From NCBI RefSeq assembly GCF_004305975.1, contig NZ_BHZI01000017.1:1-37284 (forward strand): a DNA stretch of 37,284 nt. The letters run 5' to 3'. Positions 13,123 to 32,788 of this stretch are shown piece by piece. A model generated the notes under the pieces. The model had not been told where the DNA came from. It searched no databases and saw only the letters and a program-made list of their open reading frames with translations. Every line of letters begins with the position of its first letter. Positions within the stretch are counted from its first letter, which is position 1. This DNA comes from Streptomyces otsuchiensis. Lineage in GTDB: Bacteria > Actinomycetota > Actinomycetes > Streptomycetales > Streptomycetaceae. The position numbers and the translations under genes are program-made.

Positions 13123-14085
13123 TCAGTCCCCGTAGGCCGCCAGGGCGCGCACGGCGGCCTCCCGGGCGCTGTCCGCGAGCGCCGGCGGGGAGACGATCCG
13201 GCCGTCGCCGCCCAGCCGCAGGGCGAGCCTCCGCAGCGTCGCCGGATCGCTGGTGCGCAGCGTGATCCTCAGGCCGCCGTCGGGGAGTTCCTCGGCGGTG
13301 TCGTACGGGTAGTACTCCGCGACCCAGCGCCCGCCGGGACCGACCTCGATCACGACCTGAGGGTCCGAGGCGGCGGGCTGCACCAGCCCGGCGCTGAGGT
13401 CCCGGGGTTCGACGGGCGGCGGCTCGGCGGGCGTGTCCAGCAGTTCGATGCTGGCGACCCGGTCGAGCCGGAAGGTCCGCCGGGCCTCGGATCGGCGGCA
13501 CCACGCCTCGACGTAGGTGTGGCCGACCGCGAACAGCCGGATCGGGTCGATCTCGCGGTCGGTCAGTTCGTCGCGGCCCGGCGAGTAGTACCGGATGCGC
13601 AGTCGCCGCCGTTCCGCTATGGCACGGTCGACGTCGGCGAAGACCTCCCCCTCGGACTCGAAGGTCACCGACAGCCGGGAGCTGGCCCCGGCGCTCTCAC
13701 CGGCCGCGGCCTCCAGCTTGGCGGTGGCGCGCAGCAGCGCCTCGCGGTCGCTGTCGCGCAGCCCCGGCAGGGTGGCCACGGCGCGCGCGGCGACCAGCAG
13801 CGCGGTGGCCTCGTCGGCGGCGAGACGCAGCGGCTCCCCGGCGCCCTCGCCCACCGCCTCGGCGTTGTACCACCAGATCCGCTCACCGTCGGTGTCGATG
13901 TCCAGCAGGTCCCCGCCGCGGAAGCTGGTGCCGCACATGGGCAGCACCTGGAGGTCGGAGATCAGCTCGTCCGCGGTGATCCCGAACGCGCGCGCCACCT
14001 CGTCCACCCGCGCTCCGGGCCGGTCGCGCAGGTAGGTCACGAGCGACAGCAGCCGCCGGGTGCGGTCGATGGCGTTGACCGCCAT
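13123..14085 (-). CDS. pafC: WYL-domain DNA-damage regulator PafC
   Basis: The 320-residue protein has an N-terminal winged-helix region (IDRTRRLLSLVTYLRDRPGA, then VDEVARAFGITADELISDL) and the conserved LPMCGTSFRGGDLLDID that follows in PafC. A WYL domain occupies the middle, around IAERRRLRIRYYSP and FAVGHTYVEAWCRRS. A WCX-like C-terminal domain ends near LAAYGD. PafB and PafC together activate the LexA-independent DNA-damage response in actinobacteria; the WYL domain senses the signal. The ATG lies 10 bases after the pafB stop, with a GAGGGAAG site that begins at the pafB TGA, so the two are made together. Confidence 0.92.
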   Translation of the reverse strand: MAVNAIDRTRRLLSLVTYLRDRPGARVDEVARAFGITADELISDLQVLPMCGTSFRGGDLLDIDTDGERIWWYNAEAVGEGAGEPLRLAADEATALLVAARAVATLPGLRDSDREALLRATAKLEAAAGESAGASSRLSVTFESEGEVFADVDRAIAERRRLRIRYYSPGRDELTDREIDPIRLFAVGHTYVEAWCRRSEARRTFRLDRVASIELLDTPAEPPPVEPRDLSAGLVQPAASDPQVVIEVGPGGRWVAEYYPYDTAEELPDGGLRITLRTSDPATLRRLALRLGGDGRIVSPPALADSAREAAVRALAAYGD

Positions 14086-14095
14086 GGCACTTCCC

Positions 14096-15049
14096 TCATC
14101 CCTTGGCGACGGCACGCAGCCGGTCGACCACGTCGGCCCGCAGTTCCGCGGGTTCCAGCACGATCACGTCCGGGCCGAACTCGGCGAGCCACGCGCCCAG
14201 CCCGTGCCCGTGGGGCAGTTCCAGCTCGTCCCAGCCGTCGTCGCCGGTGCGGGTGGCGGTGGCGCGGGCGCGCAGCGGGTATCCGGCGCCCGAGCGCAGC
14301 CGGATGCGCGCCTGCCCGGTGGCGTGCTCGCCGGCCCAGGTGGCCACGGTGTCGCGGACGGTGACCCGGTCCGGCACGTCGGCGGTGAACGCGCCGCCGC
14401 GGGAGCGCACCCGCCCGGTGATCCGGGAGAGCCGGAAGACACGTTCGGCGCCCCGGTCGCGGTCGTAGCCGGCGAGGTACCAGTGGCCGCGCCAGCACTC
14501 CAGCGCCCAGGGCTCGACCAGCCGCGGGGTGGAGCGCGCGGCGTTGGCCTTGCGGTAGTCGAAGACGACGGGGCGCCGGTCGCGGCAGGCGACCATCAGC
14601 GGTTCGAAGGACGCCTCGCCGGCCGGGATCCGCGGTTCCAGCGCGCCGAACGGCTCCGCCTCGTCCCCGGCCAGCGGCATGCCGGCGGCGCGCAGCTTCT
14701 GGAGCGCGGCGCTGGCCGCGCCGGCGAGCCGGACCTGCTGCCACACCTTGGCCGCGAGGCCGAGGGCGGCCGCCTCGGCGGCGTCCAGGGTCAGCGGCGG
14801 CAGCCGGTTGGAGTCGGGGCGGGCGACGTAGCCGACCTCGCCGTCGAGGTTCTCGACGGTCTCGATCACCATGCCGAGTTCGCGCAGGTCGTCCTTGTCG
14901 CGTTCGAACATGCGGTTGAAGGCGTCCTCGCCGCCCGCCTCGATGTACGCCTCGATCGAGGTGCGCAGTTCGCGCTTGCTCAACGGCCGGCTGGCGCCGC
15001 GCAGGCACAGCGCGAGATTCATCAGCCGCTCGGCCTTGGCAATGGCCAT
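14096..15049 (-). CDS. pafB: WYL-domain DNA-damage regulator PafB
   Basis: The 317-residue protein begins AIAKAERLMNLALCLRGAS and has NRMFERDKDDLRELGMVIET at about 44-63, both typical of PafB. The WYL region includes RRPVVFDYRKAN and the residues around EPWALECWRGHWYLAGYD. A WCX-type domain ends at VVDRLRAVAKG. It acts with PafC as a transcription activator at RecA-independent damage promoters. The ATG has GAGAGAGGG upstream. Unlike in mycobacteria, it is separated from pafA by two FKBP genes and a strong terminator, so it probably has its own promoter within 15050-15120, where I could not identify one confidently. Confidence 0.92.
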   Translation of the reverse strand: MAIAKAERLMNLALCLRGASRPLSKRELRTSIEAYIEAGGEDAFNRMFERDKDDLRELGMVIETVENLDGEVGYVARPDSNRLPPLTLDAAEAAALGLAAKVWQQVRLAGAASAALQKLRAAGMPLAGDEAEPFGALEPRIPAGEASFEPLMVACRDRRPVVFDYRKANAARSTPRLVEPWALECWRGHWYLAGYDRDRGAERVFRLSRITGRVRSRGGAFTADVPDRVTVRDTVATWAGEHATGQARIRLRSGAGYPLRARATATRTGDDGWDELELPHGHGLGAWLAEFGPDVIVLEPAELRADVVDRLRAVAKG

Positions 15050-15120
15050 CGACGCGCCGCCCTCTCTCAACTGTCGCTCAGGGACCGACCGTACCGCCAT
15101 CGGCACCGTGGGCGAAAGCG

Positions 15121-16965: not shown

Positions 16966-18327
16966 TCACATCCCGGCGATCAGCTTCTCCACCCGTTCGT
17001 CCACCGACCGGAACGGGTCCTTGCACAGCACGGTGCGCTGCGCCTGGTCGTTGAGCTTGAGGTGGACCCAGTCGACGGTGAAGTCCCGGCGCTGCTCCTG
17101 GGCGCGGCGGATGAAGTCGCCGCGCAGTCGCGCCCGGGTGGTCTGCGGTGGCACGGACTTGCCCTGGAAGATCTCCAGGTCGTTGCAGATGCGCTTGGCC
17201 TGTCCCTTGCGCTCCAGCAGGTAGTAGAGGCCGCGCCTGCGGTGGATGTCGTGGTAGGCGAGGTCTATCTGCGCCACTCTCGGGTGGGACATCGACAGGT
17301 TGTTCTTCGCCCGGTACCGCTCGATCAGCTGGTACTTCATCACCCAGTCGATCTCGGTGTTGACGCGGTCCAGTTCCTGCTCGCGGACGGCGTCCAGGGT
17401 GCGGCCCCACAGCTCCAGGACCTGCTCTGTGACGCCGGTGCGGATACCGCGCCGTTCGCAGAAGTCCAGCGCCTTGTCGTAGTACTCCTGCTGGACCTCC
17501 AGGGCGGACGCCTCCCGGCCGGTGGCCAGTCGGACCTTCCGCTGCCCGGTGATGTCGTGGCTGACCTCGCGGATGGCCCGGATCGGGTTCTCCAGGGTGA
17601 GGTCGCGCATCACCGTGCCGGCCTCGATCATCCGCAGCACCAGGTCGGTCGCGCCGACCTTCAGCAGCATGGTGGTCTCGGACATGTTGGAGTCGCCGAC
17701 GATGACGTGCAGGCGACGGTACCGCTCGGCGTCGGCGTGCGGCTCGTCCCGGGTGTTGATGATCGGCCGGGAGCGGGTGGTGGCGGAGCTGACGCCCTCC
17801 CAGATGTGCTCGGCACGCTGGCTGACGCAGAACACCGCGCCGCGAGGGGTCTGGAGGACCTTGCCCGCGCCGCAGATCAGCTGACGCGTGACGAGGAAGG
17901 GGATCAGGACGTCGGCCAGCCGGGAGAACTCGCCGTGCCGGCCGACCAGGTAGTTCTCGTGGCAGCCGTAGGAGTTGCCGGCGGAGTCGGTGTTGTTCTT
18001 GAAGAGATAGACGTCGCCGGCGATGCCCTCCTCGTGGAGGCGGCGCTCGGCATCGACCAGCAGCCCCTCCAGGATTCGCTCGCCCGCCTTGTCGTGGGTG
18101 ATGAGTTCGGTGACGTTGTCGCATTCCGGGGTGGCGTACTCCGGATGCGACCCGACGTCCAGATAGAGCCGGGCCCCGTTGCGCAGAAAAACGTTGCTGC
18201 TGCGGCCCCATGACACGACGCGGCGGAACAGGTACCGCGCCACCTCGTCCGGTGACAGCCTCCGCTGTCCACGGAAAGTGCAGGTGACGCCGTACTCGTT
18301 CTCAAGCCCGAAGATTCGGCGGTCCAT
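16966..18327 (-). CDS. pafA: Pup--protein ligase PafA
   Basis: The 453-residue enzyme activates the C-terminal glutamate of Pup with ATP and joins it to substrate lysines. The carboxylate-amine-ligase-like fold shows [11 protein letters not shown] at the N-terminus (Glu9) and [18 protein letters not shown] at 51-68, whose Asp57 corresponds to the essential Asp of the family. [19 protein letters not shown] and [13 protein letters not shown] follow. The C-terminal domain ends at RVEKLIAGM. Length equals known PafA. The ATG lies six bases after a TACTGT -10-like element and lacks a ribosome-binding site, so it may be leaderless. A divergent-looking MFS/LacI pair separates it from prcA. Confidence 0.97.
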
Positions 18328-18333
18328 GTGTGA

Positions 18334-18339
18334 ACAGTA
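18334..18339 (-). promoter_or_regulatory. candidate leaderless promoter of pafA
   Basis: TACTGT on the minus strand ends six bases before the pafA ATG, placing transcription start at or next to the start codon. The 57-base gap to the MFS stop leaves little other room for a promoter. A TTTGGG 16 bases upstream is a poor -35. Confidence 0.4.
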
Positions 18340-18384
18340 CGCCTGCGGGCGGCATCCCAAACCGGGTTCAGCGCGGCGTTGCGA

Positions 18385-29567: not shown

Positions 29568-30782
29568 TCAGGAGGGGGCCGCGGACCCGCCCTGGCCGGA
29601 CATCGCCGCGACGAAGGCCCGTTCGACGTCGGCGGTGGAGAGCACCCCGTAGATCTCACCGGTGGCCTCGACCACCAGGTACTCGCTGGAGGGGTTGGCC
29701 CGCAGATGGTTGAGCAGGTCCTCGCCGGCGAGGTCCGCGGGGACCCGCATGCCGTCGGTCAGCTCCTGCGCGAGGCCGCCCACCGGCTCCCAGGGCCGGC
29801 GGTGCTGCGGCACCGCCGCGATGGCGGCCTCCCGGACCAGCGCGCGGGGCGTGCCGTCCGGATCGACCACCACCAGCGCGCGGGCACCGGCGTCGTTCGC
29901 CCGCCGCAGCGCCTCGGAGAGGGGCGAGTCAGGGGGCACGGGGACGGCCCGCCGGGTGAGGGCGGTGGCGGTCAGCGCGGGCAGCCGCTCGCGCAGCCGG
30001 GCCATGCGCAGGCTGTTTCCGGCGCCGGTCCAGATGATGGCGGCCAGGATCGCGGCCAGCAGCCCGTCGGTGAGGGAGTCCACGCCGGTGAACGACTCGC
30101 GGTCGGTGAAGCCGCCGGTGTGCGTGGCGAGCGGGAAGCCGACCAGTACCACCACGGCGAGGACCCGGCCGGCCCAGGCGGCCACGACGGTGCCGGTCAT
30201 CGGCCGTCCGGAGATCTTCCAGATGACGGCGCGCAGCATCCGCCCGCCGTCCAGAGGCATCCCGGGCAGCAGGTTGAAGACCGCGACGATGAGGTTGGAG
30301 AGCATCAGCCCCGCGCACAGCACCCCGGGCACGGTCCCGGCCTCGGTGACGAGCATCCCCAGGTAGAAGACCCCGGCCAGGACGAGCGAGAGCAGCGGGC
30401 CGACGAAGGCGAGGGTGAACTCACGGCCCGGGGTCGGTGAGTCCTTCTCGATCTCGGAGACACCGCCGAAGAACTGGAGCTGGATACGGCGCACCGGCAG
30501 GCCGAACCGGAGCGCGGCCACGGTGTGGGCCAGCTCGTGCACCAGCACGGAGGCGTAGAAGGCGACGGCGAAGAACAGCGCGACGAGATAGCGGGCGTTG
30601 CCGATCTCGGGGAGGACGCGCTCCAGTTGGTTGCCGAAGAACCACGTGATGAGCGCTGCGACCAGGAACCAGCTCGGGGCGACGTACACCGGCACCTTGA
30701 AGATCCGGCCCATGAGGATGCCGCCTCCCCCGCCTGGGCGCTGCTTCCCGGTGCCGGGTCCGGGCCGCTCCGTGTCTCCCAC
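29568..30782 (-). CDS. site-2 protease family membrane metalloprotease with CBS domain
   Basis: The 404-residue protein is an SpoIVFB/Rip3-like intramembrane protease. HELAH gives zinc ligands His82 and His86 with catalytic Glu83, and NLLPGMPLDGG (170-180) supplies the Asp178 ligand. Four to six membrane segments are visible. A C-terminal CBS pair follows (around LSEALRRANDAGARALVVVD and SEYLVVEATGEIYGVLSTADVERAF). Such enzymes release membrane-tethered regulators or process proteins; the target is unknown. GTG at 30782 with an AGGGGACAC stretch is preferred because orthologues keep a Gly/Pro-rich N-terminus; ATG at 30713 (MGRIFKVPVYVAPSW) is the alternative. It is divergent to the RecB-family gene. 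Confidence 0.88.
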   Translation of the reverse strand: MGDTERPGPGTGKQRPGGGGGILMGRIFKVPVYVAPSWFLVAALITWFFGNQLERVLPEIGNARYLVALFFAVAFYASVLVHELAHTVAALRFGLPVRRIQLQFFGGVSEIEKDSPTPGREFTLAFVGPLLSLVLAGVFYLGMLVTEAGTVPGVLCAGLMLSNLIVAVFNLLPGMPLDGGRMLRAVIWKISGRPMTGTVVAAWAGRVLAVVVLVGFPLATHTGGFTDRESFTGVDSLTDGLLAAILAAIIWTGAGNSLRMARLRERLPALTATALTRRAVPVPPDSPLSEALRRANDAGARALVVVDPDGTPRALVREAAIAAVPQHRRPWEPVGGLAQELTDGMRVPADLAGEDLLNHLRANPSSEYLVVEATGEIYGVLSTADVERAFVAAMSGQGGSAAPS

Positions 30783-30954
30783 CGTGTCCCCTGTCCTGTC
30801 CCGCGGTCGCGGATCGTGGTCGTTGCTCCGGTGCCGCTCCCGCCGGGGTGCGGCGGGTGCCCGTGCGGGAGCACGGTGCCGCCGCCCGGTCGCAGACAGT
30901 GGCCGGGCACGATCATGCCGCGCGCGTTCCCACACGTCGATGGTATTGCGCCGG

Positions 30955-30977
30955 GTGTCGGTGGCGGGCCGTAGGGT
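30955..30977 (+). promoter_or_regulatory. PafBC-type DNA-damage promoter of the RecB-family nuclease
   Basis: GTGTCGGTG, eight bases, then TAGGGT matches TTGTCRGTG-N8-TANNNT at eight of nine upstream positions with exact spacing and -10. It also fits TTGTCAGTGGC-N6-TAGGGT, the form I recall from Streptomyces recA. Seven bases separate TAGGGT from the ATG, so the transcript should be leaderless. The gene product is a repair-type nuclease, and pafBC are in this window. Confidence 0.7.
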
Positions 30978-30984
30978 TCGTGCC

Positions 30985-32073
30985 ATGGAAGCGTCACCGG
31001 CCCCGCGTAGCCCGTCGTTGTCACCGTCCCGGGCGGCCGACTTCATGCAGTGCCCGCTGCTCTACCGGTTCCGGGTGATCGACCGGCTGCCGGAGGAGCC
31101 CAGCCCGGCGGCGACCAGGGGCACGGTGGTGCACGCCGTGCTGGAGCGGCTGTTCGACGTTCCGGCCGGGGAGCGCACGGTGGGCCGGGTCCGTTCGCTG
31201 GTGGAGCGCGAGTGGGAGCGGCTGCTGACGCGCCGTCCGGAGCTCGCCTCGCTGTTCGCCGACGAGGAGCCGCCCCCGGGTGTGGACGGCGCGGCGGCGA
31301 CGGCGGCGGAGGCACCGGCCGAGGACGGCGCGGCGCGGCTGGCGCGGTGGCTGGCGGACGCCGAGAAGCTGGTCGAGCGCTGGTTCACCCTGGAGGACCC
31401 GACCCGCCTGGAGCCGGCCGAGCGCGAGATGTGGGTGGAGACCAGGCTCGACTCCGGACTGCGGCTGCGGGGCGTCATCGACCGGGTGGACATCGCGCCC
31501 ACCGGTGAGGTCCGCATCGTCGACTACAAGACGGGCAAGGCGCCGCGCCCCCAGTACGCGGCGGACTCCCTGTTCCAGATGAAGTTCTACGCCCTGGTGC
31601 TGTGGCGGCTGAAGGGGGTGCTGCCGCGCCGTCTCCAGCTGGTCTACCTCGGAAGCGGCGACGTCCGCACCTACGACCCCGTCGAGTCGGATCTGCACGC
31701 GGTGGAGCGCAAGCTGCTGGCGCTGTGGGAGGCGATCCGGGAGGCCACGGAGACGGGCGACTGGCGGCCGCGGCGCACCAAGCTCTGCGGCTGGTGCAGC
31801 TACCAGTCGATCTGCCCCGAGTTCGGTGGTACTCCCCCGCCCTATCCGCTGCTGGTCCAGGACAAGCTGCCGCTGGAGGACGTCTCCGCGCCGGCCGGGG
31901 GCCCGGAGGAGGCCGGGGCGGCGGACGGTGGGCCCGGGGTGGGCGGCGAGCCCGGTGTGGACGGGGCGGACGGCTCCGCACGCACGGAGGCCTTGGGGGT
32001 GGCTCCGCGGGCGCCGGCCGGGGCGTCGGGCGCCGACTCGCGGCGGCCCGGGGAGGCGCCGGGGCCGGGGTGA
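30985..32073 (+). CDS. RecB-family PD-(D/E)XK exonuclease with Fe-S cluster motif
   Basis: The 362-residue protein has a Cas4/AddB-like nuclease domain. RGTVVHAVLERLF holds His50 and GVIDRVDI the acidic site. VRIVDYKTGK holds Asp180 and Lys182, and QMKFYALVLW is the QxxxY motif. Cys23 (FMQCP) plus Cys268, Cys271 and Cys277 (CGWCSYQSIC) form the AddB-type [4Fe-4S] arrangement. A 70-residue Gly/Asp/Ala-rich tail follows. It likely trims DNA ends during repair. M. tuberculosis Rv2119 beside trmI is the syntenic match. The ATG fits the conserved start and a leaderless, damage-type promoter. Confidence 0.93.
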   Translation: MEASPAPRSPSLSPSRAADFMQCPLLYRFRVIDRLPEEPSPAATRGTVVHAVLERLFDVPAGERTVGRVRSLVEREWERLLTRRPELASLFADEEPPPGVDGAAATAAEAPAEDGAARLARWLADAEKLVERWFTLEDPTRLEPAEREMWVETRLDSGLRLRGVIDRVDIAPTGEVRIVDYKTGKAPRPQYAADSLFQMKFYALVLWRLKGVLPRRLQLVYLGSGDVRTYDPVESDLHAVERKLLALWEAIREATETGDWRPRRTKLCGWCSYQSICPEFGGTPPPYPLLVQDKLPLEDVSAPAGGPEEAGAADGGPGVGGEPGVDGADGSARTEALGVAPRAPAGASGADSRRPGEAPGPG

Positions 32074-32119
32074 GCGAGAATGGGGCTCTTCGGCTTCAGC
32101 TGCCTGGGAAGGAGCGCCC

Positions 32120-32788
32120 GTGCCGATCCGCGTTCTGCTGGTCGACGACCAGCCTCTGCTGCGCACCGGATTCCGCATGATCCTGGAGGCGGAACGGGAC
32201 CTCGCCGTGGTGGGAGAGGCCGGGGACGGCCATCAGGCACTGGACCAGGTCCGGGTGCTCCAGCCGGACGTGGTCCTGATGGACATCCGGATGCCCCGGA
32301 TGGACGGGGTGGAGGCCACACGCCGGATCACCGGCCCCGCCAAGGACGGCCCGGTGAAGGTCCTGGTGCTGACCACCTTCGACCTGGACGAGTACGTGGT
32401 GGAGGCACTTCGCGCCGGAGCCAGCGGGTTCATGCTGAAGGACGCCCCCGCCGCGGAGCTGGTGCAGGCGATCCGGGTGGTGGCGGCGGGTGAGGCGATG
32501 CTGGCCCCGAGCATCACCCGGCGGCTGCTGGACCAGTACGCGGGCAGTCTGCCCTCCGGTGAGGAGCCGCTGCCGGACTCGCTGAGCACGTTGACCGAGC
32601 GCGAGCTGGAGGTGCTGCGGCTGGTGGCGCGTGGTCTCTCCAACGCGGAGATCGCCGCCGAGCTGTTCGTCAGTGAGACGACGGTCAAGACACACGTGGG
32701 CCATGTGCTGACCAAGCTGAAGCTGCGCGACCGGGTGCAGGCCGCGGTGTACGCCTACGAGAGCGGGCTGGTCCGCCCCGGGCAGTGA
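32120..32788 (+). CDS. NarL/FixJ-family response regulator (orphan)
   Basis: The 222-residue protein has a receiver domain with acidic pair Asp9/Asp10, phospho-acceptor Asp55 (VLMDIRMPRMDG), Thr85/Thr86 and Lys107. A LuxR-type HTH follows at about 156-215 (LTERELEVLRLVARGLSNAEIAAELFVSETTVKTHVGHVLTKL). All phosphorylation residues are intact. No histidine kinase gene adjoins it, so the partner is elsewhere. The GTG start has AAGGAG 7 bases upstream. It follows the RecB-family gene by 46 bases and may share its transcript, which would link it to damage induction. Confidence 0.93.
   Translation: MPIRVLLVDDQPLLRTGFRMILEAERDLAVVGEAGDGHQALDQVRVLQPDVVLMDIRMPRMDGVEATRRITGPAKDGPVKVLVLTTFDLDEYVVEALRAGASGFMLKDAPAAELVQAIRVVAAGEAMLAPSITRRLLDQYAGSLPSGEEPLPDSLSTLTERELEVLRLVARGLSNAEIAAELFVSETTVKTHVGHVLTKLKLRDRVQAAVYAYESGLVRPGQ

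Follow-up and report, generated by a model that had tools for sequence, protein, structure and literature searches.

The described systems closest to the site studied here include the RecA-NDp promoters of mycobacteria, for which the consensus tTGTCRgtg-8 nt-TannnT has been printed (PMC5656591). Mycobacterial PafBC is reported to be activated by single-stranded DNA and to join the housekeeping RNA polymerase holoenzyme; its action at RecA-NDp sites is described as a sigma adaptation in which PafB reads the -26 element (PMC6789036, PMC11804915). A review extends the motif beyond mycobacteria into other Actinobacteria (PMC8223512). For Streptomyces, the recA promoter of S. rimosus has been given as TTGTCAGTGGC-N6-TAGggT (Ahel 2002, as quoted in PMC2375139), SCO6735 is reported to have such a promoter and to be expressed more strongly after UV (PMC5087735, PMC9411070), and 67 genes of S. 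coelicolor, including dinG and uvrB homologues, have been listed with related motifs (PMC2375139). A 2022 paper on S. venezuelae reports a first search in which the M. smegmatis PafBC motif did not prove to be conserved, and treats a similar LexA/RecA-independent response in Streptomyces as still awaiting demonstration (PMC9380542). No test of such a response was found in the openly searchable literature on PafBC and Streptomyces, most subscription journals lying outside this search. In M. tuberculosis, mitomycin C is described as causing overexpression of a recB-like gene, rv2119, when recA is mutated (PMC8151990), and the product of rv2119 appears as 'RecB family exonuclease 3' in a published table (PMC2587704).

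The window analyzed here, the whole stretch of 37,284 nucleotides from Streptomyces otsuchiensis, contains one closely similar site in front of a gene for a RecB-type nuclease (Table 1). The whole site (30955-30977) reads GTGTCGGTG-GCGGGCCG-TAGGGT, and 7 bases separate its end from the nuclease ATG. Compared with TTGTCRGTG-N8-TANNNT, it carries a single mismatch at the first base, with 8 of 9 letters of the upstream element agreeing, and the window's G at this place is not a true defect, since base 1 is mostly C in Streptomyces orthologues (42 of 62 non-redundant loci). The earlier note on this DNA had described the same match (eight of nine letters, exact spacing, the -10 and 7 bases to the ATG), and our direct reading of the letters agreed; pafB and pafC, which it had placed 16 kb away, lie at 16-18 kb from the motif, and the response regulator that it had put 46 bases downstream does begin at that distance (GTG at 32120, nuclease stop at 32073). 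This was the only match with at most one mismatch in the window, where dinucleotide shuffles gave an expectation of 0.01, and with at most two mismatches there were 4 matches versus 0.69 expected. On the strength of these letters and the sequence comparisons that follow, we read the site as a leaderless RecA-NDp (PafBC-type) promoter that would drive the RecB-type Fe-S nuclease, and put the probability of this reading at about 0.86.

The site shares with mycobacterial RecA-NDp/PafBC promoters the consensus, the 8-nt spacing, the occurrence of repair genes among the genes downstream and the lack of a recognizable -35; a simple consensus scan of 30700-32300 found no TTGACA/TATAAT-type (sigma-70-like) pair. 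In contrast to the mycobacterial consensus, the Streptomyces orthologues are free at position 1 and mostly have A at position 6 (47 of 62). The distance to the gene also differs, since the RecA-NDp transcript of mycobacterial Rv1955 is reported to start ∼50 bases before the start codon (PMC2897130), whereas here the codon follows 6-8 bases past the -10. The S. rimosus recA and SCO6735 promoters have the same element and -10, come from the same genus and are both described as UV-inducible, but they belong to other genes. A one-mismatch search for the LexA box found no match in the intergenic region (30714-30984), and gave 126 matches in the window versus 105 expected, an excess too small for the search to be informative.

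Table 1. Features of the site and its surroundings in the window, and genes with a Pfam match behind exact core sites of the host genome.
Feature	Position or locus	Strand	Basis or remark
Upstream (-26 type) element GTGTCGGTG of RecA-NDp/PafBC-type promoter	30955..30963	+	direct read, shuffles, column conservation, cross-family comparison
8-base spacer GCGGGCCG	30964..30971	+	commonest spacer among Streptomyces orthologues (39/76)
-10 element TAGGGT	30972..30977	+	commonest form (35/76 orthologues)
TCGTGCC between -10 and ATG	30978..30984	+	direct read; ATG at 30985
Putative transcription start region	30978..30985	+	conserved 6-8 base gap; start at or within 1-2 bases of ATG 30985
RecB-type PD-(D/E)XK nuclease, 362 aa, Cys 23, 268, 271, 277	30985..32073	+	PF12705, E 9.8e-42
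NarL/LuxR-type response regulator	32120..32788	+	in Streptomyces probably transcribed as second gene after the nuclease; GTG start
M50/CBS site-2-type protease, divergent	29568..30713	-	inferred start 241 bases from motif
pafC (HTH_PafC, WYL, WCX)	about 13123..14115	-	domain matches
pafB (WYL, WCX)	about 14096..15106	-	named from domains and place directly upstream of pafC
pafA, Pup ligase	16966..18360	-	PF03136, E 1.5e-168
recA	L004		host genome; Pfam
uvrB	L005		host genome; Pfam
ruvC	L006		host genome; Pfam
RecD2-like helicase	L003		host genome; Pfam
YoaA/DinG-type helicase	L013		host genome; Pfam
AlkZ-like glycosylase	L015		host genome; Pfam
RecB-type nuclease studied here	L014		host genome; Pfam
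SWIM-domain protein	L001		host genome; Pfam
HAD hydrolase	L016		host genome; Pfam
DUF4132 protein	L017		host genome; Pfam
Two GNATs	L029, L036		host genome; Pfam
rpoB	L002		host genome; Pfam; 245 bases off
Polyketide-synthase-like protein	L034		host genome; Pfam

Conservation within the genus was followed in 80 orthologue loci, the best 80 of 518 confirmed in named genomes; all 80 are from Streptomyces, with S. venezuelae not among them. The whole pattern was found with at most two mismatches in 79 of these best 80 loci, and the reversed pattern, searched in similar windows of the same loci, had its best match at 3-5 mismatches in all of them. The earlier note had staked its reading on close relatives not having lost the motif, and no such loss was seen. 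Of the 80 loci, 14 carried the full pattern, 58 had one mismatch and 4 had two, and in these 76 the motif always stood 6-8 bases before an in-frame ATG. Three further loci (L047, L055, and L118) have an exact core that lies 717-897 bases further up than the aligned start and is followed in each case by an in-frame ATG (L047 contains some N); they are exceptions in appearance only, because their proteins have long variable N-terminal linkers. The remaining exception, L061, has 3 mismatches, though TAGGGT and the gap are kept, and the -10 lies 6-8 bases before the start codon in every one of the best 80 loci of the 518. When column information was calculated from 62 non-redundant of 75 Streptomyces loci, the mean was 1.96 bits for the fixed motif columns, 1.12 for the spacer and other N columns, and 0.15 in the 60 bases upstream. 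With the start codon only 6-8 bases past the -10, a leader containing a Shine-Dalgarno sequence would not fit, and the conservation of this gap lends indirect support to leaderless transcription. The N-terminal linker of the nuclease (window 30985-31020; L047, L055, L118) is very variable in length among Streptomyces, reaching ∼300 residues before the aligned core, and the promoter and its gap to the start stay constant despite this variation.

Across the class, 175 of the 197 genomes sampled gave a match to the nuclease, weakly in a few cases. From the loci with a usable place, we picked by hand 60 upstream regions from 32 other families (families f2, f8, f66, f70, f73, f85, and f94 were left out of this set). 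In 57 of the 60, and at least once in every one of the 32 families, an in-frame ATG or GTG followed 6-8 bases after a TANNNT; if more than one start was compatible, the best-scoring one was taken, which gives these counts a mild bias. Upstream of that TANNNT, the element TGTCRGTG was matched at a mean of 6.07 of 8 letters with a spacer of 8, and at no more than 3.46 with the other spacers from 2 to 16. At least 6 of 8 letters were kept in 38 of the 57 loci, 5 in 13, and 4 or fewer in 6. A free search for the whole core in the 60 regions gave best matches with 0, 1, 2, 3, 4, and 5 mismatches in 12, 14, 13, 17, 3, and 1 of them, and the reversed control in the same regions reached 2 mismatches in 2, 3 in 15, 4 in 37, and 5 in 6. 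Because the control also reaches them, the 21 loci with three or more mismatches are not significant by sequence alone, and their support is the fixed position.

The exact core was also counted in whole genomes. The class sample includes 16 genomes of the window's genus, and every one of them was enriched, with 24-72 sites versus 0-3 for the control; in the phylum sample outside the class there were 0-11 sites, often no more than in the control, and the argument therefore rests on the class. Two genomes of family f79, genus g201 (G379 and G399), had 118 and 198 exact core sites versus 0 for the control, with 31-63 in the other sampled genomes of g201; expansion of the regulon or of a site-carrying repeat are candidate explanations for this excess.

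In the host genome itself (G000; 6.15 Mb in 752 contigs), 39 sites with at most one mismatch were found versus 0 for the reversed pattern that served as control, and the exact core TGTCRGTG-N8-TANNNT occurred 24 times versus 0. An open reading frame was assigned mechanically behind 23 of the 24 core sites, the other site (L020) reaching the contig end, and 14 of these 23 genes have a Pfam match (Table 1), while 9 do not. Leaving the RecB-type nuclease aside, 6 of the 13 identifiable genes are clear DNA-repair genes; repair genes are prominent behind the core sites, but they do not make up the whole list. An ATG or GTG opening a reading frame of at least 100 amino acids lay 6-9 bases past the -10 at 15 of the 24 core sites, the nuclease site included, as compared with a fraction of 0.047 at arbitrary positions of the same loci (P about 1e-14), and an ATG alone at 12 of the 24, as compared with 0.012, the range of 6-9 bases having been chosen after the sites had been inspected.

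The genes pafB and pafC are both present in the window. In 16 genomes of 7 families with both loci on a shared contig, comparison by eye gave a distance of 13-33 kb between the nuclease and the best pafC; here it is about 16-17 kb. The motif count was compared with the presence of PafBC in 246 phylum and 197 class genomes; HTH_PafC exceeded the cut-off in 188 of the 197 class genomes, so there were few negatives with which motif counts could be compared. Eight class genomes had no HTH_PafC hit at all, five of them being only 60-86% complete, and the two most complete (G270 and G313) belong to family f88. When these eight apparent negatives were searched with PafC and PafB proteins, one weak PafC hit (G286, E 7.2e-4) was obtained and nothing else; as a positive control, the same search found PafB in 5 of 5 genomes with PafC, and did not find it in the two f88 genomes. 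The WYL model detected tandem WYL genes in 6 of 8 genomes of family f88, one gene in G313, and none in G427. The tandem genes (G270 and G422-G426) lie ∼1 kb apart, those of G270 are missed by HTH_PafC, and the pairs probably represent diverged PafBC. G427, which is 95% complete and gave no WYL protein, still has TGTCGG-N10-TAGCGT before its nuclease.

We infer by analogy that the mycobacterial PafBC mechanism also holds in Streptomyces. Damage would then produce single-stranded DNA that binds the WYL domains of PafBC, and PafBC would enable the housekeeping RNA polymerase holoenzyme to initiate from the TAGGGT -10 without a recognizable -35, while PafB would read the TGTCGGTG element. The first transcribed base would be that of the ATG or lie close beside it, so that the mRNA would be leaderless and would encode the RecB-type Fe-S nuclease, which would probably trim DNA ends or flaps in recombinational repair, and in Streptomyces the transcript would probably run on into the NarL-type regulator.

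A RecA-NDp-class damage promoter might also be served in Streptomyces by another activator, either ClgR or a PafC-like WYL paralogue. ClgR is reported to recognize the same P1 promoter in M. smegmatis, where its deletion impairs induction (PMC5656591), the 3-10 PafC-HTH hits per genome in the window's genus mean that a paralogue could be the activator, and G427 retains the element with no WYL protein found there. However, cross-linking followed by immunoprecipitation has located M. smegmatis PafBC at RecA-NDp sites, structural work has placed PafB on the -26 element (PMC6789036, PMC11804915), and the nuclease keeps its place near the best pafC across the 7 families described above; we consider a different activator unlikely. 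The cross-family loci, in which TANNNT and the 6-8 base gap are kept in 57 of 60 and an upstream element of at least 6/8 in 38 of 57, would also be compatible with an ordinary constitutive leaderless housekeeping promoter, whose function would depend on the -10 and the start codon alone, the upstream element having no role. Such a promoter is very improbable here, given that the upstream element stands out at exactly one spacing (8), that the flanks upstream of it are not conserved, that no sigma-70-like pair was found in 30700-32300, and that 6 of the 13 other identifiable genes behind host core sites serve DNA repair.

Resemblance by chance in a GC-rich intergenic region could draw on the four window sites with at most two mismatches, but with 0.01 matches expected at one mismatch or fewer, and with the motif kept in 79 of the best 80 Streptomyces loci, it has a negligible probability and is already refuted by the conservation. 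The PafBC/RecA-NDp reading, which was that of the earlier note, is supported by the genome-wide enrichment, the repair genes behind other sites and the conservation among orthologues.

The earlier note had also called the product an Fe-S nuclease, and the residues support this: C23, C268, C271, C277, H50, D166, D180, K182, Q198, and Y202, which include the four cysteines and the PD-(D/E)XK residues, are each invariant in 110 sequences, of which 96 come from Streptomyces or the window's genus and the other 14 represent three further families. The arrangement C...CxxCx5C with a catalytic His, D, D-x-K, and Q-x3-Y is typical of Fe-S RecB-type nucleases, and the protein is predicted to hold a four-Cys Fe-S cluster and to have nuclease activity. 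It shares with Fe-S PD-(D/E)XK nucleases of the Cas4/AddB type one early and three late cysteines around the RecB nuclease core, and the Cas4 and AddB models match it below their curated cut-off. In contrast to those nucleases, it has 362 amino acids with no match to a helicase domain, and a sequence search at E≤1 found no relative among solved structures. Like the Rv2119-type nuclease it is RecB-type, and it is a putative Rv2119 orthologue. Because the motif stands directly before the gene, and this position is kept in many relatives, the gene very probably serves DNA repair and is induced by damage.

A NarL-type regulator is adjacent to the nuclease on the same strand in 80 of 80 Streptomyces loci (best 80 of 518). 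The two genes are separated by -4 to 609 bases (median 20.5), and the median regulator identity is 90%. Among 14 loci from three other families, 2 have such a regulator ∼1.4 kb away and 12 have none within ∼1.5 kb. No terminator-like structure was found in 30700-32300, and no TANNNT on the plus strand in 31701-32121, so that read-through from the nuclease into the regulator is plausible, and the regulator may plausibly be co-induced with the nuclease in Streptomyces. If it is co-induced, DNA damage would be coupled to a two-component output. We presume the regulator behind the nuclease to correspond to SCO1654 of S. coelicolor. A review table gives SCO1654 among the NarL-type orphan regulators, without a name (PMC9739842).

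These results bear on the published question of whether Streptomyces has a LexA/RecA-independent damage response, as raised in PMC9380542, since promoters of this class occur in abundance in 16 of 16 sampled genomes of the window's genus, and a short list of targets is given for one genome. At the level of sequence, what is new here is the depth of conservation, the genome-wide enrichment in Streptomyces as against the published negative, and the linked response regulator. We suggest tentatively, and at somewhat under even odds, that Streptomyces has a full PafBC damage regulon, that the nuclease is among its most anciently fixed leaderless targets, and that the conserved NarL-type regulator lies on the same transcript, so that sensing of single-stranded DNA would reach a second regulatory layer beyond repair. 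Being short, widely kept and, as it appears, leaderless, the promoter would make a good reporter for the damage response.

Several other sites in the host genome deserve mention. An exact full-consensus RecA-NDp site (L002; G000:C13:11694-11716, minus strand) precedes the mechanically assigned rpoB start by the distance given in Table 1, and may be a damage-responsive promoter for RNA polymerase beta. Two divergent sites stand back to back (L001/L012; G000:C5:39560-39715) between a SWIM-domain gene, on whose side the site is exact and the ATG lies 7 bases past the -10, and a gene for an AAA_5/MoxR-like ATPase, on whose side there is one mismatch. Four proteins without a Pfam match (L009, L033, L035, and L037) start 7 bases past exact core sites and are candidates for unknown damage-response genes. 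A one-mismatch site (L022; G000:C164:4989-5011) precedes the gene for a pentapeptide-repeat protein, a fold known from gyrase-protecting proteins, and here too the ATG lies 7 bases past the -10.
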